IMG/VR virus record: IMGVR_UViG_3300024999_000030
Location: 248,001 to 312,000 of that record
Reading direction: 5' to 3' (one strand)
DNA: 64,000 nucleotides
From: a virus
Below are positions 9,347 to 47,852 of this stretch, one piece after another. Every line of letters starts with the position of its first letter. Within the stretch, counting starts at the first letter, position 1. The notes beneath the pieces were generated by a model. The model did no database searches, had not been told where the DNA came from, and saw nothing but the letters and a program-made list of their open reading frames with translations. A program made the position numbers and the translations under genes.

Positions 9347-10303
9347 ATGAGAACATTACAATATGTGAAGGAAAAAATATTAGAAAAATATAATGAAACC
9401 ATTATCTGCTTATCCACAAAATACATTAACAATAAAAGTAAACTATCGTGTCGTTGCAATACATGCCAACATAAATGGTTAATTAGTTTTAACGATTTAA
9501 GTAGTGGACATGGGTGCCCAAAATGCTCTAAGAGAATACATAAGCAACCAGAAGAAATATTAAGTCTGGTGCATAGTCGTGGTGGCCAGGTGTTATCTAT
9601 GCCAGAAAAAATTAGGCTTAATATAAAATTCTTAGTTAAATGTAAAAATGGCCACGAATTCAAAACTTCTTGTCGCGCTCTGTTTCACGATAAAACCTGG
9701 TGTCCCATTTGTAAATCTAATATTGAAGAAAATTTTTGTAGAAAGATACTTGAAACATTGTTTAAAGAAAAATTTCCAAGCGTAAGGCCTCACTGGTTAA
9801 AAAATAAAAACGGAAACACAATGCAACTTGACGGCTATTGTTGTGCTCTTAATCTAGCCTTTGAATACAATGGGGAGCAACATTATAAAAATATTAAATT
9901 TTTTAAAGAAAAGGCAGTGATGATACAGAAAAGAGACCAAGAGAAGGCTAACCTATGTTCTACATTAAACATTAAGTTAATTGTAATTCCATATACTGTG
10001 TCCAGACAAAACGTGGAAAGTTTCATAAGAATCGAATGTGAAAGGCTTGGGATTACAGTTCCCAATGATGATAAAATAGATATTAAAAATTTAAAAGTAT
10101 ATTCCACTAAATTAAAAGAATTTCAGCAGCTATGCCTTGCACACAATGTAGAATGTAAATCTACTCAATATATTGGGGCCTTTAAACATATGAATCTAAA
10201 ATGTCTTAAGTGTGAGAATGAATGGGTTTCATCTCCCATTAATTTCAAGAAACATCCCAACTGCTCAAAATGTCAAAAGAGAAAGGAAACAAATGGAACT
10301 TAA
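9347..10303 (+). CDS. zinc-ribbon plus VSR/PD-(D/E)XK-like endonuclease, possible homing enzyme
   Basis: Start placed at 9347 because GGAGGA lies 4-9 bases upstream. The N-terminal ~110 residues hold two zinc-ribbon or treble-clef units (CRCNTCQHKW ... CPKC, then CKNGHEF ... CPIC). Next comes a nuclease-like core (about 120-230) with LDGYC, EYNGEQHY, a QxRDxEK segment and IPY, the order expected for VSR-like free-standing endonucleases. A last zinc ribbon (CLKCENEW ... CSKC) ends it. Such proteins usually cut DNA to spread themselves in phage genomes. It is inserted between unrelated genes. The nuclease class is inferred from motifs. Confidence 0.68.
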   Translation: MRTLQYVKEKILEKYNETIICLSTKYINNKSKLSCRCNTCQHKWLISFNDLSSGHGCPKCSKRIHKQPEEILSLVHSRGGQVLSMPEKIRLNIKFLVKCKNGHEFKTSCRALFHDKTWCPICKSNIEENFCRKILETLFKEKFPSVRPHWLKNKNGNTMQLDGYCCALNLAFEYNGEQHYKNIKFFKEKAVMIQKRDQEKANLCSTLNIKLIVIPYTVSRQNVESFIRIECERLGITVPNDDKIDIKNLKVYSTKLKEFQQLCLAHNVECKSTQYIGAFKHMNLKCLKCENEWVSSPINFKKHPNCSKCQKRKETNGT

Positions 10304-11816
10304 AAAGCTTGGTATTTACGGATGTGAGGCAATTGAGGATTTAGTGTCGGCTGCACTTTTAACTGGTGACTCCGCTCTTTTTGTTGGAGCAGCTGGAAGC
10401 GGCAAAACTTTTATGTTAGAGAGAGTTGCCCAAACGCTCAATTTAAAATTCATTGCATACAATTGTTCCTCGGCTAATTTTGACGACATATGTGGATTTC
10501 CTATTTTAAACACAGAAAAAACTGAAATGAACTTTATCTCTACTCCGACTTCTATTTGGGGAGTCAACCTTGTGTTGTTGGATGAAATTAACAGAGCAAG
10601 GCTTGATATTCAAAATAACTATTTTCAGCTCATTAGAAACCGTAGTGTGCAGGGTAAGCGTGTAGATACATTGAAGTGGGTTTTTGCCGCCATGAACCCA
10701 TTGAGTTATGCTGGAACTCAGCCTTTAGATCAGGCTCTTGCAGATAGATTTGCATGGGTGATTAGAACTCCAGCATTTCATATTATTAATGAAGAAGACA
10801 GACATAATATCATCGGGAACATTACTGGTGATGATGCCCCTGCGATGAATCACTGGGGATTTTCTAAATCTTATCACCGCGATGAACAACTTACCGTGGG
10901 GCTTAAATCTTTCTTTGGTGCGGCGGCGGCTATATATAATGACTACCTTAATAACTGTAATGATGTTGTTAGTTATGTGGATGATTTTGTAATCTCAGTT
11001 AATAATTCTAGTGGATACTCTGGAGCAATTGAAGGTCGAAGAGCTGGTATTCTTCTTCGTAATATTCTATCTCTTGCTGCGGTGCGTGATGCTAGTGGTC
11101 TTCCTGGTGGCCTAGAGGCTGCTGCAGGTAAAGCAATTTTTCATTCATTTGTAAATGAAGCCATCGACCAGCCAATCCCAAATAAAATTTTAGAAACGGC
11201 TCATGAAAAAGCTAAAGTTTATTTGAGGAAATCGGCATCTTCTATTATGGAAACTATTGAACGATTGCCATTTTCCATTCAGAAAATTTCTAAGGGTATG
11301 GAACATAATATTGACCCCGTCGTTCTTGGTGGTTATGTGAACACCCATCTCACGGAAATTAATAAAGATGCGCCATTAACAGCGGCCTTTGCACTTGCTG
11401 TGTGGCCATATCTTAAAAATTCCAACGTGACTAACGATGCCTTGGCATCTGTGGCTGAGATTTTATCTGTTGCTCTGTCTAATCATAATTCTGATTTCTA
11501 TCGTTGCCCCGTTCTGTATGATATGCTTAATCCTAACTTACATTCTTTTACTGGTTTAAATGAAGTTATTAAATCTATTACTCCTGTTCCTGGACAAAAA
11601 TTTAATAACGTAACAGAGTTGTTAAAATCTGGTGACGCATTAGATAGCGTAGCTAAAAAGCTTGATCTTAATTTCCGTTATTATTATAATGATGCCCGGC
11701 TATTATCAGACTCTGCAAGGGCCATTAAAGCTTTGAAGGCTTATATGCGTATTTTATCTAATAATAATAAATTTACTCCGGCTAAGTTTGCCACTTCTCA
11801 ACAGAAGGGAGAATAA
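10293..11816 (+). CDS. MoxR-type AAA+ ATPase
   Basis: Start at 10293 (AAGGA site) since translation from earlier codons only reads through the preceding gene. Residues ~25-190 form an AAA+ core: Walker A GAAGSGKTF, Walker B LVLLDEINRA, and the MoxR/AAA_5 sensor region FAAMNP followed by ALADRFAW. The C-terminal ~300 residues are helical and unmatched. MoxR ATPases remodel protein complexes with a VWA-domain partner, and such a partner is encoded two genes downstream (12652). A second copy of this pair sits at 26.6-29.3 kb. Substrate in this phage unknown. Confidence 0.85.
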   Translation: MELKKLGIYGCEAIEDLVSAALLTGDSALFVGAAGSGKTFMLERVAQTLNLKFIAYNCSSANFDDICGFPILNTEKTEMNFISTPTSIWGVNLVLLDEINRARLDIQNNYFQLIRNRSVQGKRVDTLKWVFAAMNPLSYAGTQPLDQALADRFAWVIRTPAFHIINEEDRHNIIGNITGDDAPAMNHWGFSKSYHRDEQLTVGLKSFFGAAAAIYNDYLNNCNDVVSYVDDFVISVNNSSGYSGAIEGRRAGILLRNILSLAAVRDASGLPGGLEAAAGKAIFHSFVNEAIDQPIPNKILETAHEKAKVYLRKSASSIMETIERLPFSIQKISKGMEHNIDPVVLGGYVNTHLTEINKDAPLTAAFALAVWPYLKNSNVTNDALASVAEILSVALSNHNSDFYRCPVLYDMLNPNLHSFTGLNEVIKSITPVPGQKFNNVTELLKSGDALDSVAKKLDLNFRYYYNDARLLSDSARAIKALKAYMRILSNNNKFTPAKFATSQQKGE

Positions 11817-14067: not shown

Positions 14068-14861
14068 TGAAAACTAAAGTTACTATTCCAATTTTAGGTG
14101 ACAATAAAGATACTGATTTTGATCCGGCCAATGACATGATGGTAATGGTTATTGCCACCACTTCAAAAGGGAATGACGAAAAATGGAAAGTAAGAGTTGG
14201 ACGCAAGATTCATAAGGGAATGGGAACCTTAGCTACATCTCGGGGGTGTTATGGGTCTGGGTACACTACTAATAGTAATGCTGGCATTGTAGAATCTTTT
14301 GATTATAGAAAAAATATTGGAACTGGTTGTGTTGTTATGATTAATGGTATTGCTCGTCATGTTCAACTTCCCCCAGAATATAATGCTCCTAAAGAATATG
14401 CTCTTGACTATGATGATAGTTGTGTAGATATCATTGCGGTGGAATCTGAAGATCAAATTACGGATTTTTCTAAGGGCAACCTCACATATATTGGTGGATG
14501 TATTATCAATATAAAAAATCAAAACTTTGCCAGTGGTTCAATAAACATTATTGAAGACGCTGGATTTATAAATGAAAATATATTCCAATTGGCTTTTTCT
14601 CCTTCTAATTCAGAAAAAGAATATAACGATCTTATTTGTTTAAATACTAATTTAACTTGCGTAGAGGGAGTTGAAGTTTGCTTAAAACCTTCTTTGTTAT
14701 TTATTTCTTATAAAGTTTCACATACAACTATTTCAAACGTTTTAACTTGTTATTTAGAAAAATATATTGACAAAAGTAAGAAGGAGTATTATATTGGGTG
14801 TAGTGGTATAAAAGAAAATAAACTAAACGCTAGTATTATGTTAAATGTAGGAGACAATTAA
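14067..14861 (+). CDS. hypothetical protein, 264 aa
   Basis: Starts in the stop codon of the VWA gene, so likely part of the same transcription unit. Mixed beta-rich sequence with scattered cysteines (RGCYGSGY, GTGCVVM, DLICLN, LTCVEGVEVC) that do not form a recognised metal motif. Ends in the overlap with the radical-SAM-like gene. Function unknown. Confidence 0.58.
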   Translation: MKTKVTIPILGDNKDTDFDPANDMMVMVIATTSKGNDEKWKVRVGRKIHKGMGTLATSRGCYGSGYTTNSNAGIVESFDYRKNIGTGCVVMINGIARHVQLPPEYNAPKEYALDYDDSCVDIIAVESEDQITDFSKGNLTYIGGCIINIKNQNFASGSINIIEDAGFINENIFQLAFSPSNSEKEYNDLICLNTNLTCVEGVEVCLKPSLLFISYKVSHTTISNVLTCYLEKYIDKSKKEYYIGCSGIKENKLNASIMLNVGDN

Positions 14862-16045: not shown

Positions 16046-17230
16046 ATGATACAGTGGACAAAAGAAAGTAAGATTCCGATTAAAAGCTGGTGCCTCAATA
16101 TCGAAGGGGAAGCCCTTAAGCAGGCAATTGATTTATCTCTATTGTCCGTGGCTAAGCACCATGTTGCATTGATGCCAGATTGTCATAGTGGATTTGGTAT
16201 GCCTATTGGTGGGGTGGTGGCGTTGGAAGACGCCATCGCCCCTAATTTAGTGGGGGTGGATATTGGTTGTGGTATGGGAGCTATTAGAACTAATATTAAA
16301 GCTGGTTTAGTTTCAAAGGCCGATATCGAAGAGGTAATTGAAAGACTAGGTAAGTTAATTCCTGTTGGATTTAATTCTCATGACCATCGTATTGAGTGGA
16401 CAAGTTTTGATAATACCCCATATAAGACTTCGGTGAAAAATACATTTGTTTCAGAAGAAGAAATTAATAAAGCTAAGTATCAATTAGGAACTCTTGGAGG
16501 TGGTAATCACTTTTTAGAATTAGATAAAGATACTGATGGAAAAGTGTGGTTGCTTTTACATTCTGGTTCCCGTAATTTCGGATATGGTATTGCTAAGCGC
16601 TATCATGAAAAAGCAATTAAATATTGTGAAGATAATAAATTAGATTTACCAAATAAGGGGCTTGCATATTTTCATTTATCGTCCGACGAGGGTCAAGATT
16701 ATTTTAACGCAATGACTCTGGCTTTAGATTTTGCAAAAGAAAATCGACGTATTATGATGGAAGCCTTTAAAAAGGTAGTTAATAAAGTTTTTAAACATGT
16801 TGAATTTTTAGATGAATTTAATATTCACCATAATTATGCTGCTATTGAAAATCATTTTGGTTCTAATTTAATAGTTCATCGTAAGGGCGCCGTCGATGCT
16901 TCTATCGGAAGTAAGGGCTTGGTTCCGGGTTCGATGGGAACCTCTTCTTATATCGTTGAGGGACTTGGTAACGATGAGTCTTTTAGATCTTGCTCTCATG
17001 GAGCTGGAAGAAAGATGGCAAGAGGAGCGGCAAATAGAACTATTGATAAAGCGGAGGCAGATCGTCTGATGCATGGCATTGTTCATCAATGGGGAAAAGA
17101 TAGAAAAGGAAGTTTAGATTTATCTGAAGCCCCTCAGGCTTATAAAGACATTGATGTTGTAATGGAGGCTCAATCTGATTTAGCTAAACCAATTCATTCT
17201 TTAACACCTATGGGCGTTTTGAAAGGCTAA
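16046..17230 (+). CDS. rtcB: RtcB RNA ligase
   Basis: Joins RNA 2',3'-cyclic phosphate or 3'-phosphate ends to 5'-hydroxyl ends using GTP and Mn2+, as in tRNA repair and splicing. The metal and catalytic residues are in place: DCHSGFGMPIGG, VGVDIGCGMG with Asp72 and Cys75, GGGNHFLEL with His155, LHSGSRNFG with His172, HHNYAAIEN near 262 and SCSHGAGRKM with the GMP-accepting His318. The length of 394 aa is a little under the bacterial norm. A strong TTAGGAG site precedes it. In a phage it could reseal host tRNAs cut by defence nucleases. Confidence 0.93.
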   Translation: MIQWTKESKIPIKSWCLNIEGEALKQAIDLSLLSVAKHHVALMPDCHSGFGMPIGGVVALEDAIAPNLVGVDIGCGMGAIRTNIKAGLVSKADIEEVIERLGKLIPVGFNSHDHRIEWTSFDNTPYKTSVKNTFVSEEEINKAKYQLGTLGGGNHFLELDKDTDGKVWLLLHSGSRNFGYGIAKRYHEKAIKYCEDNKLDLPNKGLAYFHLSSDEGQDYFNAMTLALDFAKENRRIMMEAFKKVVNKVFKHVEFLDEFNIHHNYAAIENHFGSNLIVHRKGAVDASIGSKGLVPGSMGTSSYIVEGLGNDESFRSCSHGAGRKMARGAANRTIDKAEADRLMHGIVHQWGKDRKGSLDLSEAPQAYKDIDVVMEAQSDLAKPIHSLTPMGVLKG

Positions 17231-35171: not shown

Positions 35172-38101
35172 TGAGACTCTACAAGTATTCCGATGATAAC
35201 AAAAATGTTAATGAAGAAACTAAAGATGGTCTAGAAGAATCAAAACCTCAATCTTCATCAACAATCCCAGAGATAGAGCCTGGGGAAAATGATGAAATGA
35301 TTGGGATACTTGTAGAGAGTTTTGCCGATACTCTTATATCTTCTTTATGGTCAGATGATTTTCCAATTCCACTATCGGAATTGACGCATCACATAGGACA
35401 ATTAGGAGAAAATAATTTTATAAGGTCCATGGAAAATATTAGGACCTTTTTAAGTAAAATTGGGGCTTTTAAATATGAGGTGCCAATCAACAACAAGGAA
35501 GATGCCCTCCAATATATACAATCGTTTTCCCCTCAGATTAAAGATTTAGGTAAGTCACATGCGATGGCACTGTTACAATTACTTGGTATTAGCGGAAGTA
35601 GACCAGAGGAAATCTCATTAGAAACCCCTATTGGTAGCCCATCAGCTAAAGGCGAAGAAGGTCGTCCAACTCTAGGTGGGACACTTACAGATAAAAATAC
35701 ACCTCTTAGTGAGTTATTAGATAAAGAAACCTATGTAGATAATTTATCTAGGATAAAAGATGTTTATGAAGAAATAGAAAATTTAGATCAGTTGTCACCA
35801 GAGGAAGCAGATACAAAACGCGGTCAATTACTTACACAATTAAAATCAATTGAAAAATCTTTTTCAGCTTTTGATGTGCCAGAACAAGTAGAAAAAAAAG
35901 TAGAACAGCTGTCTATTAAATTACAATCGTCAAACGCTTTTCAAAGTAGAGTAGAAGAACTTAAGGATAAATATGGTTTAGTGGATATGAAAGATCCTAA
36001 AATTTTAGCGTATGCTGCTCAGTTAGATAGGATGCCACCGATTAAACCAGGTGAGTTTAAAGAGGGGTTTCCAGTTGTTGACTTGTCTACTATTCCAGAT
36101 ATAGCTAAGACTGGCGCCAGCGACATAGCAAAGTTTTTATTGATAGCTAGATTATCAGAGTCTAAAGTCTTCTTAACGAGAAATCAAAATTCTGGTAGTC
36201 CGGTTGGTGGAGGAATGGCCACAAAGTGGCCCACTACTATATCTGGAACAGATACATTTATGGACCATAGATTTTCATCTAAGAAAGCATTCGTGAATTA
36301 TTCTGGAAATATTAGCTCATTAAGTTCAGAAGAGTTTAGTAAAATATTAGATAAATATTTAGGGGGGGCAGAGAAAGCCGGTTCGGGTAGACAAACTTCT
36401 TATACATGGCCCATGGTGTTTAGTCAGGCCTTAGGGTCCTTTATAGGTATGCCCGAAGAAGCTATGTTAAACCTTGGTGCAGAATTAGCAGACGCAATAG
36501 AGACTGAAGATAAATCTCAAATTAAAGCTGTGTTATCAAAATATAAATATAATTCATATGGAGTATTAACAGATACTTCTCATGACTCTTTATCTAAAAA
36601 TAATTATACTTTTAGTTCTATTTGTACTCCAACTCAAATGGTAAAGTCTTTAGCGGAAGCTAAGGGAACTAATGCTGAAACAATCCATGAAGAAATGAAA
36701 GGTCTTTTACCGAATAGTAAAACGCTTCAGGGGGCTATAGGACAACCAGTATTTGATAATAGAATGCCAATCATTCCAATGCCCCCAGAGGCACTAGTGG
36801 CCATTGCTTTCTATGTTGTGAGGTTATTTATAGCCACATGTAGAGCTAATGTAATATCAACAATAGAAGAATATAATTCTAATGAAAAAGTTCAATCAGA
36901 TATAGAATCTGTTATTAATAATTTAATGGATAATTTAAATTCATCTTTAGATTCATCTGGCGATTTTCGTTTATCTGGTGTGACTAAAGCATTTACGAGA
37001 CCTATTATACAAACCACTAAGCTTCAAAATTTTGGGGTATCGGTGGATAAACTTAAATCATTAGCAATGGAAGGTATTAAATTATCATTGCAAAGTGGAG
37101 CATTATTATCTTCATCGGAAGCCTCATTCGATTTTAAAAAACAGTCGTCATTTAATAGAGAGGCAATTTATAATATTGCCACTACTTTATCTAAAGCCAC
37201 ATTAGATAGTATCCAAGTTGGGGATAAAACCATCCCGACCAATATGACTAGTGTAACTTCTGGAACTCGTCTTACGGATTTTAGTTCCAGAAGATTATTA
37301 GATGTAGAAAAAGCCGAACAGCATGGTAGATATTCATTATCTCAGCCCGAGCAAATTAAAGCAAGCACATCTGAAACTGTTCGTAGATCTATGGGTAGAA
37401 TGTCAAGTCTTGTTGATAATTGTAATCTAGTATCTATCATTGGAGTGGAACAAAGCGAAGATGCCACTGTATTTGCCATTCGGTCTAACTCTAGTCCCGT
37501 AATACAAAATGGCGGTAAGGGAGCAAAGATTACTATCTATACAAATACGGATGGAAAAAGAGAAGAGGTATTATCTTCCACAACTGATAGAATTTCAGTT
37601 AAACCATCAATTGGGGACGATAGTGGTAGGCTGGCATACAAGTTGTTTATATCACCAGCAGTTGATTTTTCTATGGAAGACTTTGATTATGAGCTTAGTA
37701 TAGGTCAAGAAATTATGTATCAAGCTAGATTAGCCACTGAGAAAAACACTCTTGATGTTTGGATTAGAGAAGTTAACAAAGAATTATTTAAGTTTAATGA
37801 AATGAAGTCTGAAATGATTCAAGCTATTTCTTCTAATAATTTATCAAGGGCTATGGAAGTTATGAGAATTAATGAGCTATCTTTAAGGGTGGACCTAAAT
37901 AGATTTAAAACACTTAATTCAGATTACAAATCTATTGTAGATTCTGTAATGAATAAAATTAAAGATAAAGAAGACGTAGATGCATATTCTATTTTTATAA
38001 AAGATTATGTATTTAAATGTATAGTGGCTATTAATCAAATCAGAACTCAAATTGTTGATTTTAAAAAACAAGCAGCTATTATTCTTGGGGTGGGTAAATG
38101 A
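35171..38101 (+). CDS. large hypothetical protein, 976 aa
   Basis: Starts in the TAATG overlap with the Cas4-like gene and ends in the ATGA overlap with the nucleotidyltransferase gene. The N-terminal ~50 residues are acidic and disordered (SKPQSSSTIPEIEPGEND). Residues ~185-275 form coiled coils. The middle is rich in Ser and Gly, and one hydrophobic stretch (ALVAIAFYVVRLFIATC) appears near residue 540. The end is again helical. No enzyme motifs. Length and composition would suit a virion or large scaffold protein, though its neighbours are nucleic-acid enzymes. Confidence 0.6.
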   Translation: MRLYKYSDDNKNVNEETKDGLEESKPQSSSTIPEIEPGENDEMIGILVESFADTLISSLWSDDFPIPLSELTHHIGQLGENNFIRSMENIRTFLSKIGAFKYEVPINNKEDALQYIQSFSPQIKDLGKSHAMALLQLLGISGSRPEEISLETPIGSPSAKGEEGRPTLGGTLTDKNTPLSELLDKETYVDNLSRIKDVYEEIENLDQLSPEEADTKRGQLLTQLKSIEKSFSAFDVPEQVEKKVEQLSIKLQSSNAFQSRVEELKDKYGLVDMKDPKILAYAAQLDRMPPIKPGEFKEGFPVVDLSTIPDIAKTGASDIAKFLLIARLSESKVFLTRNQNSGSPVGGGMATKWPTTISGTDTFMDHRFSSKKAFVNYSGNISSLSSEEFSKILDKYLGGAEKAGSGRQTSYTWPMVFSQALGSFIGMPEEAMLNLGAELADAIETEDKSQIKAVLSKYKYNSYGVLTDTSHDSLSKNNYTFSSICTPTQMVKSLAEAKGTNAETIHEEMKGLLPNSKTLQGAIGQPVFDNRMPIIPMPPEALVAIAFYVVRLFIATCRANVISTIEEYNSNEKVQSDIESVINNLMDNLNSSLDSSGDFRLSGVTKAFTRPIIQTTKLQNFGVSVDKLKSLAMEGIKLSLQSGALLSSSEASFDFKKQSSFNREAIYNIATTLSKATLDSIQVGDKTIPTNMTSVTSGTRLTDFSSRRLLDVEKAEQHGRYSLSQPEQIKASTSETVRRSMGRMSSLVDNCNLVSIIGVEQSEDATVFAIRSNSSPVIQNGGKGAKITIYTNTDGKREEVLSSTTDRISVKPSIGDDSGRLAYKLFISPAVDFSMEDFDYELSIGQEIMYQARLATEKNTLDVWIREVNKELFKFNEMKSEMIQAISSNNLSRAMEVMRINELSLRVDLNRFKTLNSDYKSIVDSVMNKIKDKEDVDAYSIFIKDYVFKCIVAINQIRTQIVDFKKQAAIILGVGK

Positions 38102-38790
38102 AAGAGTTTGCATATGTAGTTTCCAGACTCAAAACAGCCGCTCAACAAACCGGTGAAACTTGCTATATAGTTGGTGGAGCCGTGAGAGATATAATATCTC
38201 TTAAGAAGATTAAGGATGTTGATACGGTGGTGGCAATAAATCCTGAAAAATTTGCCTCAGCATTAGCCTCTACAACGGAGGGAGCAACCGCAGAAGAGGT
38301 TCATGCTCCATTTCCATTGTGGTCAGTGGATATTAGCGACGTGTCTGTAGATGTAGTTGGGTTAAGAGGAAAGAGTCTTCAAGAAGATATTCAACATAGA
38401 AATTTTACTATCAATACAATATACTATGACGTAGTAAGAGATAGGTTTGAAGATCCAACTGGAAAAGGGTTTACTGATCTTTATAATGGAGTAATTAATA
38501 CTGTTACTCCAGATTCTTTTGTTTTTTTTAGTTCTAGTCCACATGAAATTAATAGCATATTTATAGCAATAAGATTAGTAGCGGATTCCGGATTTAAATT
38601 AAGTGAACAATTAAAAAGCGGAATTAGGAAAGCCTTAGAGCATGGCCTCATTCCCGCTGAGTTATCTAAGAGATCTAAAAAGGAAATACTAAGAACTAGG
38701 CTTTCACATAATTTTAAGACCAAAGCTCTCCCCATAATTGAAGAGCTTGGTTTGGAGCATTTTTATGAAGCTGCCGCTGTTTCTCCATAA
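38098..38790 (+). CDS. CCA-adding-enzyme-like nucleotidyltransferase (small copy)
   Basis: Class II tRNA nucleotidyltransferase head domain: YIVGGAVRDII, then KDVDTVVAI with the D-x-D metal pair, DVVGLRGKSLQEDIQHRNFTINTIYY, and a following helical part. At 230 aa it stops before the neck, body and tail of CCA enzymes, and the EDPxR motif is replaced (SSPHEINSIFIAIRLV). It overlaps the next, larger nucleotidyltransferase by 26 bases. The two may form a pair, with this one catalytic or regulatory. It could also modify another RNA or small molecule. Confidence 0.78.
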   Translation: MKEFAYVVSRLKTAAQQTGETCYIVGGAVRDIISLKKIKDVDTVVAINPEKFASALASTTEGATAEEVHAPFPLWSVDISDVSVDVVGLRGKSLQEDIQHRNFTINTIYYDVVRDRFEDPTGKGFTDLYNGVINTVTPDSFVFFSSSPHEINSIFIAIRLVADSGFKLSEQLKSGIRKALEHGLIPAELSKRSKKEILRTRLSHNFKTKALPIIEELGLEHFYEAAAVSP

Positions 38791-41700
38791 AACCGCCCAG
38801 GCGGGATTAAATCAAGCTGTATTTAATATGGTAGCAGCCGCCACTGATGCAGGATTTAATGCACCAATCTATTTAGCTGGTGGTGCCGCTAGAGATATCA
38901 TTCTTGGAAAGTCTCCTAATGACCTAGATGTTATGATAGAAAAAGAAAATGGAGCTGAAGAATTTGGAAAAATTTATTTAAACTATTGTGAAAAAAATAA
39001 CATTAAAGTTTCTACTCCAGGTAAAGCTGTGGGTGCTAATTTTGGTGTATATAAATTTAGGCACGATGGTTTAGAATTAGATTTTGCTACTTCGCGTACC
39101 GATACTTATACTGAAGATTCTAGGAAGCCTACAGTTGAATCTGCAAGCCTTAATGAAGATGCGGAGAGAAGAGACTTCAGTATTAATGCTATGTATGTTT
39201 GTATATACGGCACTCCCTCTGTTCAACCAGATGACAAGGTTGATATTGGAGGAAGAGAGTTTGGAGTTTATGACCCAACTCATAAAGGAATTAAAGATTT
39301 AAAAAATGGAGTTATTAGTTTTGTAAATGATGATCATGATTTTACTTTAAGCGAGGACCCCATTAGGGCTCTTAGGGCAGTAAAATTTTCTGGTAGAAAG
39401 TTTGGAGAAAAAACTTTTACAATTGAACCAGAGACATCTAAAAGTATTAAAGATTTTTTAAATTCAGAAAAAGGTAAAGAGCTATATCTTAAAAAGGTTA
39501 AACCGGAGAGGCCCTGGAAAGAATTAAAAGATATTCTAACTGCTCAGAATTTAAAAGAAGCTATGAAACAGTTTAAGGAAACTGGAGTCAGGGACTTTAT
39601 TTTTGATTTACCAAAAGAAGAATTTAATAGTTGGGACATGGATCAACTTAACAAACATCATAATCTTAATTTATATGATCACACAATCTTTGCTATGGAA
39701 AATCTTGGAGAAGGACTTCATACTATGGGGGAAAATGGCCTTCCCATTTCCAAAGACACTGAAGCCACTATACAACTAGCAATGTTATTACATGATGTGG
39801 GAAAAAGACATAAAGAATTTAAACCTAGAGAAGATGGAACAGTTAAATATTTAAAGCATGAAAATAAATCTACAGATGTTTTAAAAAAATATGTTTGGCC
39901 GAAGCTGGCACAGTTACCACCAAAAACTCAAGAGATTGTTAATTACTTTGTGAAGAGTCATATGGATTTTCATAAGTATCCCAAGAAGGATGAGGGAGAT
40001 ATTAGATTTTTAAAGCAGATGATTTATAATCTATTGCCTAAAACTTTTGGTGGTTCTCTTGGAGCAGATAAAGAAAAACAGATGGAGATAATGTCTTATG
40101 TTGTGAGTTTCTTTGGTAGCGCAGATTCTTCTGCAAAACAATTAGAGGATGAAGAAAAAAATAAACTAACAAAAGACTACGAAGACTTTGGTAATAGACT
40201 TAGATTGTCTAAACCAAGGAACCTTTTGTTTAATGTTGCTGCTCCAATCATCAAAGAAATATTGACTAATCATGGAGTTCAAATTTATAATAGTGCAATC
40301 GGATCTATATATGAATACTTAAATGTTTATATTATTAACGTTTCAGAAGAACCAAAAGATATAATTCAATTTGTATCTAAGCAGACAGAACAAATTCTAA
40401 CCAATGTAAAAAATTTTGTTAAAGAATTTATAAATGAGCATGAAGGAACAAATGAACAAGAGGCGCTTGATAAATATCTTGCCAATGCTCATAAGTTTTC
40501 TGGATCAATTAAACATAGGTTTAAAAAAGATGCAATCTTTGAAGTGTTGTCGGATTTATATAAAGATAAAAAAATAAATGGAGATGTAAAAATGCCTAAG
40601 CTCGTTATTGCTAAATATAAATCTAAAAAGAAACTCGATACCGGTACAGTTGTATATGAGTATGGAGAAGCCGATAAAAAGAAACGAGCTAAAAAAAAGG
40701 CACGTCAAGTGAGAAAGGTGTTTCAAAATATTAATAAAATTAAAAAATCTTTTGAAAAAGATCTAAAGTCCGATGATAAAAAAATACAAATGACGGCTTT
40801 AGCTGTGGGAATTATTTATCATATTTATGAGCGGGTAGGCGATAGAGCTAATGTAGGAACAGGCGTTACTTCATTTAGAAAGAAACATATTACAGTAAAA
40901 GGAAATAAAGTACAGTTTAAATATGTGGGAAAATCACATATGAAACAAGATAAAACATTAACAGATTCAACTATAGCCAAAATCATTAAGGAGAATTTAG
41001 AAGGTAAAAGTAGTAATGCATATCTGTTTGACTATACAGATGAAAATGGTAAAAAATTTGATGTATATTCCAGTGACATTAATGAATATCTTAAATCTTT
41101 TAACATTACCGCTAAAGATTTAAGGGCCCACGCAGCTAATGATATTTTAATTGCTAAACTTAAATCAGCTGGAAAAGCTAAAGGTGAATCTCCAGAAGAA
41201 AAAGAAAAATGGCGTAAAGAAAAACTCAAAGAATTAATTGAAGAAACAGCTGATGAAATTGGTCATACTCCCGGCATTTGCAAATCATCATATATAGACC
41301 CATCTCTTATGGATGAATATATAGCCAGTGGTAAAATTATTAAATTAGCTGCTGATTTTGATTTGACAGTAATAATTAAACTTGCGGATATTTCTGTTAA
41401 TCCAAAGATTAAAGAGTTAATGGATAGAGAATTCACACCAGAAGAACAATCAATCATTTCAAATCCACATGATGTAAGATCTACAATTAATGATGAAGTG
41501 TTCTTACAGGCCTTAAGTAAAGCTAAACAACAAGGAACTTTATCTGGTTTATTAGAAATAGTAGAAGATAATGACCCTTCTGCTTTTGGAGTTACCCCGG
41601 TTATAGTTGGTGGTAAAGCTATTCCCATTATTGGGCTCAATGTTAATAAAATTAAAGAAGAGGCAGCCCAGAAAGGTAAATCGATTGAAGAGGTGTTGTC

Positions 41701-42295
41701 AGAACAGGTTAAACAATTTTTAGGAGTCATGGCCCATGAGAAAGAACATGTCGAAGGCAAAGGTGAACCTGAAGCTGAAAGAGTACAAAAAGATGAAGTG
41801 TCTAAACAAACTTCTCAAGAAGGGTCATCATCTAAGCTAACAATGGGCTCTCTTAAGTTGGCATCTACAGATAAATCTCTTTTTCAAAAACTTGGTATTA
41901 GAGATATTAGTAATGATACCTTATTAAAAGTATCCAATAATGTTTTAAAAATTCTTGGAATCCCAAATACCAATCTTAATATAGGACTATTGTCTCTTGG
42001 GTATCTTGTTATGCTTGGTAATCACCCCTATAGGTCAGAATGGAATATTAGACAAGCTACGGGTTTATCTGAACCAATTAATATTAAGGAAGCACAGACC
42101 CTATATAATATTTTAGATAACGCAATAGATGAGAAACCTATTGAAGAAGATAAGGCAAAAGAATATTATTCTTTTTCCGATGAAGATAAAATGAATCTAG
42201 GTGAACTACAATCACTTAAGTGGGAATCTGAACCATCCTATGCGGCTGGAACAGGTATGGGATTTTATCCTCAAACACATCCTTTTAATTACTAA
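38765..42295 (+). CDS. fusion: tRNA nucleotidyltransferase + HD domain + DNA topoisomerase IB + HExxH region
   Basis: Start at 38765 (GGAG seven bases before). Residues ~15-225 form a CCA-enzyme-type head: LAGGAARDII, NDLDVM, RRDFSINAM and SEDPIRALRAVKF. Then an HD domain, with LLHDVGKRH near 342. Residues ~610-850 match a topoisomerase IB catalytic domain, with all five active-site residues placed: Arg690 (YERVGD), Lys723 (YVGKSH), Arg787 (TAKDLRAH), His834 (IGHTPG) and Tyr843 (SSYIDP). Near 991 lies HEKEH, an HExxH metal motif followed by acidic residues. The C-terminal ~170 residues are unknown. Topoisomerase IB would relax supercoils during replication. The joining of RNA-tailing and topoisomerase parts is unusual. 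Confidence 0.85.
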   Translation: MKLPLFLHKTAQAGLNQAVFNMVAAATDAGFNAPIYLAGGAARDIILGKSPNDLDVMIEKENGAEEFGKIYLNYCEKNNIKVSTPGKAVGANFGVYKFRHDGLELDFATSRTDTYTEDSRKPTVESASLNEDAERRDFSINAMYVCIYGTPSVQPDDKVDIGGREFGVYDPTHKGIKDLKNGVISFVNDDHDFTLSEDPIRALRAVKFSGRKFGEKTFTIEPETSKSIKDFLNSEKGKELYLKKVKPERPWKELKDILTAQNLKEAMKQFKETGVRDFIFDLPKEEFNSWDMDQLNKHHNLNLYDHTIFAMENLGEGLHTMGENGLPISKDTEATIQLAMLLHDVGKRHKEFKPREDGTVKYLKHENKSTDVLKKYVWPKLAQLPPKTQEIVNYFVKSHMDFHKYPKKDEGDIRFLKQMIYNLLPKTFGGSLGADKEKQMEIMSYVVSFFGSADSSAKQLEDEEKNKLTKDYEDFGNRLRLSKPRNLLFNVAAPIIKEILTNHGVQIYNSAIGSIYEYLNVYIINVSEEPKDIIQFVSKQTEQILTNVKNFVKEFINEHEGTNEQEALDKYLANAHKFSGSIKHRFKKDAIFEVLSDLYKDKKINGDVKMPKLVIAKYKSKKKLDTGTVVYEYGEADKKKRAKKKARQVRKVFQNINKIKKSFEKDLKSDDKKIQMTALAVGIIYHIYERVGDRANVGTGVTSFRKKHITVKGNKVQFKYVGKSHMKQDKTLTDSTIAKIIKENLEGKSSNAYLFDYTDENGKKFDVYSSDINEYLKSFNITAKDLRAHAANDILIAKLKSAGKAKGESPEEKEKWRKEKLKELIEETADEIGHTPGICKSSYIDPSLMDEYIASGKIIKLAADFDLTVIIKLADISVNPKIKELMDREFTPEEQSIISNPHDVRSTINDEVFLQALSKAKQQGTLSGLLEIVEDNDPSAFGVTPVIVGGKAIPIIGLNVNKIKEEAAQKGKSIEEVLSEQVKQFLGVMAHEKEHVEGKGEPEAERVQKDEVSKQTSQEGSSSKLTMGSLKLASTDKSLFQKLGIRDISNDTLLKVSNNVLKILGIPNTNLNIGLLSLGYLVMLGNHPYRSEWNIRQATGLSEPINIKEAQTLYNILDNAIDEKPIEEDKAKEYYSFSDEDKMNLGELQSLKWESEPSYAAGTGMGFYPQTHPFNY

Positions 42296-44440: not shown

Positions 44441-45340
44441 ATGTTTGCAAACTTACATACTCATACCGATTATTCTGTATTAGATGGAATGATGACGGTA
44501 GATAAGGCTTTTGAAAAAGCCAAGCAGAATGGATACTCCGCTCTAGCAATTACAGAACACGCAAATATGGCGTCTTTATTTGTTGCTTTAAAGGCGGCTG
44601 AAAAATATGATGTAAAATTTATTCCTGGTATAGAATTTAATTTTGCAGATGACACGGGCGACGAGAAGGAATATCATCTCGTCGCTTTAGCTTCAACCCA
44701 CAATGGACTTAAGTCTATTATGAAAGTTTCCTATGGGGCTTATTTTAAAGACTATAAGAATCCATATATCACATGGCAAGATCTAGATGAACTAGATAAA
44801 GATGGGGTATATCTTTTATCTGGATGTGAGGCAGGACTATTAGCAAGAAAAGCTTTATTTTTTGGCTCTTCTCGCGGAGGCCAAGTGTTAGATAGATTTT
44901 CATCTATGTTTGGTGATAGGTTCTTTGTTGAATTAAATGCCCCTTACAATGATAGGCAAAAAGATATCAATAGTATTTTATTAGATTTATCTAAACAAAA
45001 AAGTGTTCCAGCAATTATGACATTAGATAGTCATTATGCTAATGAAGCTGATGCGGAATTATTTCCAGTTTTTCAAGCAGTTCAATCTAAACGCACTATC
45101 TTTGATAAAGATAAATTTTACGATAGAAGTTCTTTAATCTCTGAGTCAGCGTTAAGAAATATGTGCGAGTCAGAATTTTCTTCCTCTATAGATAACGCCG
45201 CCGTATTAGCTTCTAGATGTCAGGACCCTAGGGAATATTTAAAAATTAGTGGCTCCTTTCTTATGCCAAAATTTGATGTGAGTTCAACGGACGACTATGA
45301 AGGATTTAAGAAGTGGAGGAAGGAAAACTATGGAGTATAA
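44441..45340 (+). CDS. dnaE: DNA polymerase III alpha, PHP-domain subunit (split gene)
   Basis: The N-terminal third of a bacterial replicative polymerase as its own 299-aa protein. PHP metal motifs are kept: NLHTHTDYSVLDG (His6, His8), AITEHANMA, IPGIEFNF, and LDSHYANEADAELF. These ligands suggest a working proofreading-type phosphoesterase rather than a dead domain. It ends (GFKKWRKENYGV) where a normal alpha subunit continues into the palm domain, 11 bases inside the next gene. The following start has its own strong ribosome binding site, so the split is real rather than a read error. Confidence 0.88.
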   Translation: MFANLHTHTDYSVLDGMMTVDKAFEKAKQNGYSALAITEHANMASLFVALKAAEKYDVKFIPGIEFNFADDTGDEKEYHLVALASTHNGLKSIMKVSYGAYFKDYKNPYITWQDLDELDKDGVYLLSGCEAGLLARKALFFGSSRGGQVLDRFSSMFGDRFFVELNAPYNDRQKDINSILLDLSKQKSVPAIMTLDSHYANEADAELFPVFQAVQSKRTIFDKDKFYDRSSLISESALRNMCESEFSSSIDNAAVLASRCQDPREYLKISGSFLMPKFDVSSTDDYEGFKKWRKENYGV

Positions 45341-47852
45341 TGAAAGTCATGAATATTTGACTTATCTATGTGTGAAGGGTTGGGATAAAAAACTAGTTCC
45401 CTTAAACTTATCTGAAAATAAAAACATAGAATATGCACAAAGACTTAAGCATGAATTACAAATGATTAATATGGCTAACTTAGATGATTATTTTTTAATT
45501 GTTTATGATATCATGAGATATTGTGATGAACAAGGAATTCAAAGGGGACCCGGGAGAGGGAGTTCAGGAGGATGTTTAGTCGCATATCTAACCAATATTA
45601 CTCATGTAGATAGTATAAAATATGAATGTTTGTTTTCTAGGTTCTTTAATATTGGTAGACTTCAAACGGGAAATCTTGCAGATATCGATGTGGATATTGA
45701 TCCTAGATATATTAATGATGTAATTGGATATATTAAAAATAAATATGGAGCAGATAAAGTCGCTGCCATTTCCACTGTTGTAAAGCTATTTGGTAAGTCT
45801 GCAATTAAAGATGTGTCCAGAGCGCTGGCAATTGGAGAAAACGGAACAGGTAAAGCCGAAAACAAGAAAGAGATATTCTCTTTAAGTAATCGTATTACTT
45901 CTTTCTTTCCTGATGATCCTAAAGCTACGGTGGCATCATCCGTATCAACATCCAGTGAGCTTAAGAAATATCAAGAACAGTTTCCAGAACTTTTCGATAA
46001 AGCTATTAAATTGGAGGGATTGGTTCGCTCCAACTCTATTCATGCATGTGGGATGACTATTTCTAGTGTACCCTTAATTGAACATCTACCTATGAAACTT
46101 TGTAAAATTAAAGGCGATGAAGATTCAGAGGAAGAAGATAATAGTTATGGTCAACAGGTACAACTCCGAGAAGTTGTAGACGTGGACATGAAGGTATTAG
46201 AGTCTAGGAAATTTTTGAAGTTTGACTTTCTTAAATTAAAAACTTTGTCCGTGGTTAGAGACACCTTAGATATGATTAAACAAAATCATGACGTTGATAT
46301 AAAGCTTCAAGATATTAACCTTGAAGATGAAAAAGTATATGAATATATGTGGAAGGCTCCTAATTTATTAGGTATTTTCCAGTTTGAAAGCTCTGGAATG
46401 AGAGATTTAGTCAGAGCAGTAAAACCTAGAAGTATTGAAGAGTTGGCGCACTGTAATGCTTTATATCGCCCAGGCCCAATCGATTCTGGTATATTAGCTC
46501 AGTATATTAAAAGACGACAGGGCAGAGAGATGATAGCATATGATCACGTAGCTCTTAAACCTATATTAGAAAATACATATGGGCTACCGGTGTTTCAAGA
46601 GCAAAATATGAAGATTGCTCAAACTATCGCGGGCTTTTCAGAACAAGAAGCTGACATTTTAAGAGCAGCTATGGGTAAAAAAGATAAAGATAAAATGGCC
46701 TCTCTTCAATCTAAATTTTTAGATGGGGCTGCATCCAAGGGATATAATAGGGACTTAGCGGAATATCTATTTGATGCTATTGAAAAATCCAGTAGATATG
46801 CATTTAATAAACCACACTCTGTGGCATATTCTATTATGGCTTATTATACCCTATGGCTTAAATTTTATTATCCTACTGAATTTATTACTGCCAGTATTAA
46901 TAATGAAAAAGATTGGGAAAAGATTTCTTTATTTGTTTTTGACGCACAAGAACATAATATTAAAGTTCTTCCAGTGGATGTATCTAAATCTCAAATTGAA
47001 TACACCGTTGCAGGTGATAAACAAATTCTTACAGGCTTTAAATCTATTAAGGGAGTGGGGGCAATAGCTCCTCAGATTATCGTCGCCCGTGCCCCATACG
47101 TAGATTTTGTTGATTTTTTAATTAGAACCCATGAGAAGGGTTCTAAGGTAAGCAGTGCAGTTGTTGATGCAGCTAATGCGGTAGGTGGATTTGAGTCTTT
47201 AGGTTTAAACAGGGCTACAGTAGAAGCTCATTATGATAAAGTAGCAAGCCTACTTAGGGTTGAATATTTAACTAAGGAAAATAAAATTACGGAGATGGTG
47301 ACAAAATACACTAAAGGCAATGAAACTATTGATATAGTGAAAGTTGTACAAGAATTAATTTCTAATTCCCCCACAGTTAGTTATGAGTTCGATAAGAGGC
47401 AAATGAGATATATTACTAAGGCTCTTTCCGCTGTATATCCAGAGAAGAAAGATACTGTGTCTGGAGTCCCTATCGAAGACCTACCAGATTGGCCTATGCT
47501 CAAAAAATGTAAACTTGAAAAAGCATACCTTGGATATTTTGTAAGTGGCCACCCCACTAAAGACGTTGCTATAAAACCCAAGAATCACCTTGGCTATGTG
47601 AGTAGTATGAATAACGGCGATAAAGTTGAAATCGTTGTTTTTATAGAAAGATTAGTAGTAGATAAAATTGTGTCTGGTGGCAAAAGAATGTGTAAGTTTG
47701 AAATTTCAGACGCCAGTGGCTCTACAGACTTAGCGGTGTTTATGAAATCTCATGAGATGTGTCCGATTATAGTTGGGTCAGTATGTCATCTTTTATGTGC
47801 GGTCAACGTATTTAACGGCAGAACCTCACTACAGTTTGTAAAGGTTTTATAG
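45330..47852 (+). CDS. dnaE: DNA polymerase III alpha, polymerase subunit (split gene)
   Basis: Replicates phage DNA. Start at 45330, with GGAGGA nine bases upstream. Residues follow the C-family polymerase: ELQMINMANLDDYFLIVYD, then GPGRGSSGG, ADIDVDID with the catalytic aspartates, and KFDFLKLKTL with the third. The fingers follow (ALYRPGPI, VFQEQNM, ILRAAMGKKD, FNKPHSVAYSIMAYYTLWLK), then helix-hairpin-helix and an OB fold near the end (EIVVFIERL ... KRMCKFEISD). At 840 aa plus the 299-aa PHP protein, it equals one DnaE. The two proteins must assemble. No epsilon or beta clamp gene is seen in the window. Confidence 0.93.
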   Translation: MEYNESHEYLTYLCVKGWDKKLVPLNLSENKNIEYAQRLKHELQMINMANLDDYFLIVYDIMRYCDEQGIQRGPGRGSSGGCLVAYLTNITHVDSIKYECLFSRFFNIGRLQTGNLADIDVDIDPRYINDVIGYIKNKYGADKVAAISTVVKLFGKSAIKDVSRALAIGENGTGKAENKKEIFSLSNRITSFFPDDPKATVASSVSTSSELKKYQEQFPELFDKAIKLEGLVRSNSIHACGMTISSVPLIEHLPMKLCKIKGDEDSEEEDNSYGQQVQLREVVDVDMKVLESRKFLKFDFLKLKTLSVVRDTLDMIKQNHDVDIKLQDINLEDEKVYEYMWKAPNLLGIFQFESSGMRDLVRAVKPRSIEELAHCNALYRPGPIDSGILAQYIKRRQGREMIAYDHVALKPILENTYGLPVFQEQNMKIAQTIAGFSEQEADILRAAMGKKDKDKMASLQSKFLDGAASKGYNRDLAEYLFDAIEKSSRYAFNKPHSVAYSIMAYYTLWLKFYYPTEFITASINNEKDWEKISLFVFDAQEHNIKVLPVDVSKSQIEYTVAGDKQILTGFKSIKGVGAIAPQIIVARAPYVDFVDFLIRTHEKGSKVSSAVVDAANAVGGFESLGLNRATVEAHYDKVASLLRVEYLTKENKITEMVTKYTKGNETIDIVKVVQELISNSPTVSYEFDKRQMRYITKALSAVYPEKKDTVSGVPIEDLPDWPMLKKCKLEKAYLGYFVSGHPTKDVAIKPKNHLGYVSSMNNGDKVEIVVFIERLVVDKIVSGGKRMCKFEISDASGSTDLAVFMKSHEMCPIIVGSVCHLLCAVNVFNGRTSLQFVKVL

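Follow-up and report, generated by a model that had tools for sequence, protein, structure and literature searches.

The fused gene and its domains

The 64,000-nucleotide stretch analysed here (the window) covers positions 248001-312000 of the 332,730-bp phage record IMGVR_UViG_3300024999_000030. At 38765-42295 on the plus strand it contains one open frame, from ATG to TAA, in which a CCA-type nucleotidyltransferase (NTase) and a type IB topoisomerase (TopIB) are joined in a protein of 1176 amino acids (aa); use of an upstream TTG at 38738 as the start would add nine residues. The gene and its parts are as follows.

38765-42295, plus strand: fused gene, 1176 aa, encoding in order a CCA-type NTase, RNA-binding region, HD domain, helical linker, TopIB, HExxH region and C-terminal helical domain
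38867-39316, plus strand: class II CCA/poly(A) polymerase head domain, residues 35-184, motifs A-C (PF01743, PolyA_pol, 9.2e-21)
39353-39604, plus strand: motif D EDPIRALRA (197-205), RNA-binding region (residues 218-280) and motif E ERPWKEL (PF12627, PolyA_pol_RNAbd, 2.1e-5; motifs)
39680-39973, plus strand: HD domain metal motifs H306, HD343-344, H365 and H399/H403 (alignment to the CCA enzyme of relative L108)
40205-40591, plus strand: helical linker between the CCA enzyme and TopIB, about residues 481-609 (low-confidence helices)
40592-41341, plus strand: virus-specific TopIB core, residues 610-859, with R690, K723, R787, H834 and Y843 (PF01028, Topoisom_I, 1e-21)
41666-41830, plus strand: HExxH region with an HEKEH helix (991-995) and a Glu helix GEPEAE (1000-1005), zincin-like by topology only
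41912-42133, plus strand: C-terminal helical domain, about residues 1050-1123 (predicted model; conserved only in the nearest relative, contig L002)

Motifs A-E of a CCA-type enzyme are intact, including DxD, RRDFxxN, DxxxG and EDxxR (GGAARD at residues 39-44, RRDFSINAM at 135-143). The protein matches the PHROG tRNA nucleotidyltransferase family at 6.6e-45 and the NCBIfam model tRNA_CCA_actino (TIGR02692) at 2.2e-31 over residues 15-409, a match that spans the HD part but does not reach the equivalog cutoff (109 bits against 438.8). The H-HD-H-H metal motif, which includes HDVGK at 343-347, is present when aligned with the L108 enzyme, itself a match to PF01966 at 2.4e-8. For TopIB, the PF01028 score is 77.8 bits against a cutoff of 23.7, and the catalytic residues R, K, R, H and Y occur in the correct order, all five invariant in a 31-row alignment. 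PDB matches are to CCA-adding enzymes and to the TopIBs of Deinococcus, variola and vaccinia. The linker has no known family, its NA37 match being weak and below cutoff, and a PHROG Holliday-junction match at residues 687-766 (E 0.016) was taken as distant or chance. An earlier note, made from the sequence alone, had read these domains, their order and their complete active sites directly from the translation. The Pfam, PHROG, NCBIfam and PDB matches agree with it and are much too strong to be chance, and every residue and motif position that it quoted, from Arg690, Lys723, Arg787, His834 and Tyr843 to HEKEH at 991-995, is exact. The profile searches that it had proposed gave CCA and TopIB matches on the segments concerned, and neither profile failed there.

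The chain was modelled as two separate predictions. The NTase head (pLDDT ~90) matches the fold of CCA enzymes (E 1e-13), the best matches being tRNA CCA enzymes, and the TopIB residues, modelled at high confidence, match 3m4a, 2f4q and 3igc (E 5e-12). Model confidence is low for the HD and linker regions and pLDDT is ~80 for the C-terminal helical domain. The HExxH region is modelled as a helix, three strands, the HEKEH helix and a Glu-bearing helix (pLDDT ~40-70), which is the topology of the zincins in polyvalent proteins (PMC5512222); the HExxH and the Glu residues that follow are kept in L002.

The joint and the sister phage

In contig L002, the nearest relative (72% identity over the shared part), a small NTase gene (228 aa) precedes a gene of its own for TopIB plus the HExxH region (564 aa). 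The CCA/HD part is absent from this place in L002; apart from this, the two contigs are syntenic from SbcC to DnaE. The L002 TopIB start corresponds to ATG 40592 of the window, where two features mark the joint.

40568-40574, plus strand: run of seven A residues (A7) at the joint, in frame as found (sequence)
40580-40594, plus strand: retained Shine-Dalgarno sequence (GGAG) and internal TopIB start ATG 40592, 14/15 nucleotides identical to the L002 leader

The leader reads GGAGATGTAAAAATG in the window and GGAGACGTAAAAATG in L002 (consensus GGAGAyGTAAAAATG). Since this leader is nearly unchanged while only 32% of the 4-fold degenerate sites of the TopIB gene are identical between the two, the internal ribosome-binding site (RBS) and start have survived the joining. 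With one A fewer in the A7 run, the CCA frame ends at a TAA just before the TopIB Shine-Dalgarno sequence and ATG. The join is repeated in a second contig, L001, which is identical to the window contig over 24,132 nt; because there are no differences over this length, L001 does not represent a diverged or independent allele.

As read from these sequences, the fusion is a lineage-specific in-frame joining of two genes, and the joint is the old TopIB start. The single joined frame described in the earlier note thus stands, and what it had not foreseen is that the joining is confined to one lineage, retains an internal TopIB RBS and start, and depends on one base of the A7 run. An assembly chimera of unrelated DNA was rejected, because the neighbours on both sides are syntenic with L002 and contigs unrelated to this one also contain the pairing; a single base at A7 is excepted from this rejection.

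Distribution of the TopIB family and its partner domains

Viral contigs were searched for the TopIB family using the window protein and two relatives as queries, and then 14 TopIBs. Relatives were found in at least 148 contigs, of which 80 were kept, with 67 distinct proteins of 272-2806 aa. Among approximately 85,000 prokaryote genomes only three loci of the family were found, all in metagenome-assembled bins, and the phage collection holds just six records with a similar TopIB. As judged from these matches, the TopIB family of the window is nearly virus-only.

Several types of enzyme domain accompany these TopIBs. A CCA-type NTase lies ahead of TopIB in 10/67 distinct proteins, a 2H phosphoesterase is present in 12/67 and a HAD_SAK ("Swiss Army Knife") domain in 5/67, with PAP2, InPase and zincin/LPD1 domains in smaller numbers; an additional NTase-TopIB fusion was found on a metagenome-assembled genome contig (L144). 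Unfused NTase open reading frames (ORFs) adjoin TopIB at seven loci (L072, L091, L095, L100, L109, L110, L118). Some of these NTases have overlaps of 4-224 nt with TopIB, and some are in turn fusions with 2H, HAD_SAK or InPase. Of two TopIB relatives of the window, L108 has a complete CCA plus HD gene and the L058 record a 491-aa NTase frame, and TopIB is a separate gene in the closest TopIB relatives (L058, L067, L082, L103, L108).

Proximity was evaluated in 21 large contigs with a 14-kb target, for which approximately 3.5% would be expected at a random position. One NTase match was found in 12/21 contigs, and in 5/12 it was fused to TopIB or lay within 7 kb of it; after removal of a near-duplicate, the count was 4/11 (binomial P ~4e-4). 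The link is therefore common but not obligatory, because the other seven NTases lie elsewhere.

The CCA-TopIB pairing in the window thereby fits what these sequences present as a recurrent theme, in which RNA-end-processing and polyvalent-protein domains accompany the TopIBs of this viral family, either in one chain or as neighbours. Its recurrence in related giant viruses, where the joining was apparently a separate event, suggests that these viruses benefit from the pairing. A broader proposal, which we regard as tentative and give less than an even chance, is that a virus-specific TopIB and 3'-end healing enzymes (CCA-NTase, 2H, HAD_SAK, PAP2 or HD) form a conserved huge-phage module. Its members would work in physical association, with tRNA, RNA within DNA or the incoming genome as substrate, would have been fused more than once, and would in most lineages belong to a late, probably virion-borne polyprotein.

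Additional observations concern the sequences of this family. Inteins interrupt NTase motif B (RREFTFN / C...VVVHN / TLMW) at about residues 735-1180 of the L063 ORF and 155-610 in L080, and also in the NTase ORF of L100; the L080 intein matches a splicing domain at 1.7e-12 and LAGLIDADG at 6.1e-13. Short peptides (RYLTA, RVAxRY, AAKY) recur at gene starts and at the domain joints of giant proteins (L042, L044, L041, L091 and others), and KLA-type motifs occur in the fused protein of the window at residues 857-864 and 1028-1034. Both types of motif might be targeting or cleavage signals. L033/L078 (IMGVR 3300025015_000257), a contig of an LR745208-like phage, carries a HAD_SAK-TopIB fusion, and its sample also contains the twin of the window's contig.

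One or several fusion origins

Phylogenies of both halves were compared. In the TopIB tree the window and its L002 counterpart (L053) form a pair (support of 100) that groups with stand-alone TopIBs (95), and the other NTase fusions are placed elsewhere. Seven other fused NTases make up a single clade (100/100) of the NTase tree, and the NTase of the window lies outside it. A common origin with the giant NTase-TopIB fusions is disfavoured by the TopIB tree, by the sister phage without the CCA part and by the different layout, although the NTase tree is compatible with it. We conclude with moderate confidence from these sequence comparisons that the window's fusion is separate from the other NTase-TopIB fusions.

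Predicted function and alternative explanations

The explanation that we favour, and consider reasonably probable, is a real fusion protein of a huge phage, in which a whole class II CCA-type enzyme has become linked in frame with the TopIB-plus-HExxH protein that the phage already had, with predicted roles in tRNA 3'-end repair and DNA relaxation. We read the product as a putative bifunctional protein for DNA relaxation and RNA-end repair, in the style of a polyvalent protein. By analogy with its family, the TopIB half would relax supercoils during replication and packaging of the 330-kb genome, and the CCA/HD half would repair tRNA 3' ends cut by host defences. The internal start would probably supply free TopIB alongside the fusion, the fusion itself may couple DNA relaxation and RNA-end repair in one chain, and the HExxH region could conceivably release the parts. 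Because CCA is encoded in all 29 phage tRNA genes, repair is a better fit than maturation, and CCA addition to the phage's own tRNAs was rejected as the purpose. The coupling of relaxation with RNA handling proposed in the earlier note gains support from the related phage TopIBs that are repeatedly fused to or adjoin NTase and other RNA-end-processing domains.

Several results weigh against this explanation. The two contigs showing the join are identical, so that the fused state is without an independent allele; the HD domain falls below its curated cutoff in the fused protein (PF01966, 0.022, 15.5 bits against 22); the HExxH region matches no family in Pfam, PDB or the phage collection; the NTase tree leaves one or several NTase-TopIB origins undecided (single clade, approximately unbiased test p 0.35); and the window has the sole one of the 10 NTase fusions that lies outside a head-gene cluster. 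Given the lack of a family match and the low-confidence model for the HExxH region, the earlier note's further ideas, a polyprotein cut after translation and a protease at HEKEH, did not gain support.

The joint itself allows the view that the locus is operationally two genes, the single frame arising from a recent change of one base within A7 or from a sequencing error there, so that mostly a CCA enzyme and a TopIB from its own RBS would be made; slippage at A7 could also yield both forms. The run of six A residues would indeed give a textbook gene boundary, with TAA right before GGAG and ATG 40592, and TopIB is separate in L002 and in the closest TopIB relatives listed above. However, alternative-frame stops arise easily in AT-rich spacers, nine other family members have in-frame NTase-TopIB fusions, and both contigs have A7 and do not differ anywhere over 24 kb, yet these alleles are not independent. 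We consider this view unlikely.

We give more weight, albeit less than an even chance, to a polyvalent protein in the sense of Iyer et al. (2017), which would be carried in the virion, enter the host along with the DNA and be divided into separate effectors by a zincin of its own. Relatives carry the LPD1, InPase and 2H domains typical of such proteins (PMC5512222), terminase, portal or protease genes are neighbours of 41/67 family loci and of 9/10 NTase fusions, and long N-extensions are enriched in that setting (27/33 vs 14/34, Fisher P 0.001). The window protein itself combines several unrelated enzymatic domains in one chain and contains an HExxH. On the other hand, it has no LPD domain, its protease is only putative, and its gene has SbcCD, DnaE, RecA and primase genes around it and the portal and protease homologues ~36 kb away, outside a structural context. 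The polyvalent reading is appealing where the relatives are concerned, and less strong for the window. Improbable in our estimation is a third account, in which the NTase half is not a tRNA enzyme and works jointly with TopIB on a shared nucleic-acid substrate. It might, for instance, add tails to 3' ends, or heal them, where TopIB has left a ribonucleotide or nick site, with HD, 2H, HAD and PAP2 removing terminal phosphates. This account draws on the repeated pairing of family TopIBs with 3'-end or phosphate-processing enzymes (NTase, 2H, HAD_SAK, PAP2, HD), but CCA-type motifs A-E are intact including EDxxR, the best fold matches are tRNA CCA enzymes, and the shared substrate is hypothetical.

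Relation to known systems

TopIBs and CCA enzymes of phages are already known, as are polyvalent proteins (PMC7824862, PMC5512222). The NTase half resembles class II CCA-adding enzymes (Thermotoga 3h37, actinobacterial TIGR02692, phage PHROG 2244) in motifs A-E, RNA-binding region, HD and fold, but is attached to TopIB through a ~130-residue linker, scores below the NCBIfam equivalog cutoffs and occurs in a phage whose tRNAs encode CCA. The TopIB half shares the catalytic core and the R-K-R-H-Y set with bacterial and poxviral enzymes (Deinococcus 2f4q/3m4a, variola 3igc), whereas its family differs from these and from the known phage TopIBs of Motura, RSL1, Lu11 and PaBG (PMC7824862) in being virus-specific, with large N- and C-terminal extensions.

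Within the same TopIB family, the HAD_SAK_1-TopIB of huge phage LR745208 (L026/L034) also has an N-terminal RNA-repair-type domain, but this is a HAD phosphatase rather than a CCA enzyme and lies directly downstream of the portal gene. The NTase-2H/PAP2-TopIB giants (L065, L070, L073, L080, L088, L102, L122 and others) likewise have a CCA-type NTase ahead of TopIB; they differ in their length (1700-2800 aa), in that no HD was found in them, in their head-gene cluster and NTase clade, and in a C-terminus that is not common to both. Polyvalent proteins (Iyer et al. 2017, PMC5512222) also combine unrelated enzyme domains and an HExxH region in one chain, and relatives of the window's protein carry their LPD1, InPase and 2H domains; the window locus differs in lying outside the head cluster. 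TopIB is absent from the text of PMC5512222, where topoisomerase occurs only in a reference title, and pol-beta NTases are described there only in conjugative-element proteins. In the literature searched, which mostly omits subscription papers and preprints, no description of a CCA-TopIB fusion or of a TopIB-centred partner set was found, in line with the earlier note, which knew of none.

The CCA-TopIB link joins two activities that textbooks separate, DNA relaxation and RNA-end mending, and the pairing is spread through a huge-phage protein family rather than being one odd gene. If functional, it would offer a testable case of phages pairing genome topology with a counter to the RNA damage that host defences inflict, and would add topoisomerase IB to the enzymes of polyvalent-style phage proteins.

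Genomic context

The neighbours of the fused gene encode SbcCD, a PD-(D/E)XK exonuclease, trigger factor, PHP, DnaE, SSB, RecA and primase. An RtcB-type RNA ligase (1.9e-107) at window positions 16046-17230 fits an RNA-repair set. Directly upstream is another NTase.

38098-38790, plus strand: 230-aa NTase of the same superfamily, overlapping the start of the fused gene by 26 nt (PF01743, 9.7e-18; alignment)

In this short tandem NTase and its L002 counterpart (9947-10633), DxD is kept and motif D (EDxxR) is absent, and an altered nucleotide choice is possible. At 44441-47852 the DnaE-type polymerase is split between two genes, one for PHP and one for the polymerase, with a 44-nt overlap. The phage tRNA cluster includes a tRNA called Pyl with a CTA anticodon (L004:14708-14783; G000 14708-14783), possibly an amber suppressor; TAG is a minor stop here. 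In L017:14562-17378, a portal homologue has a ~1-kb insert between two matching parts, with a weak intein-splicing match (0.0047), and this insert is probably an intein.

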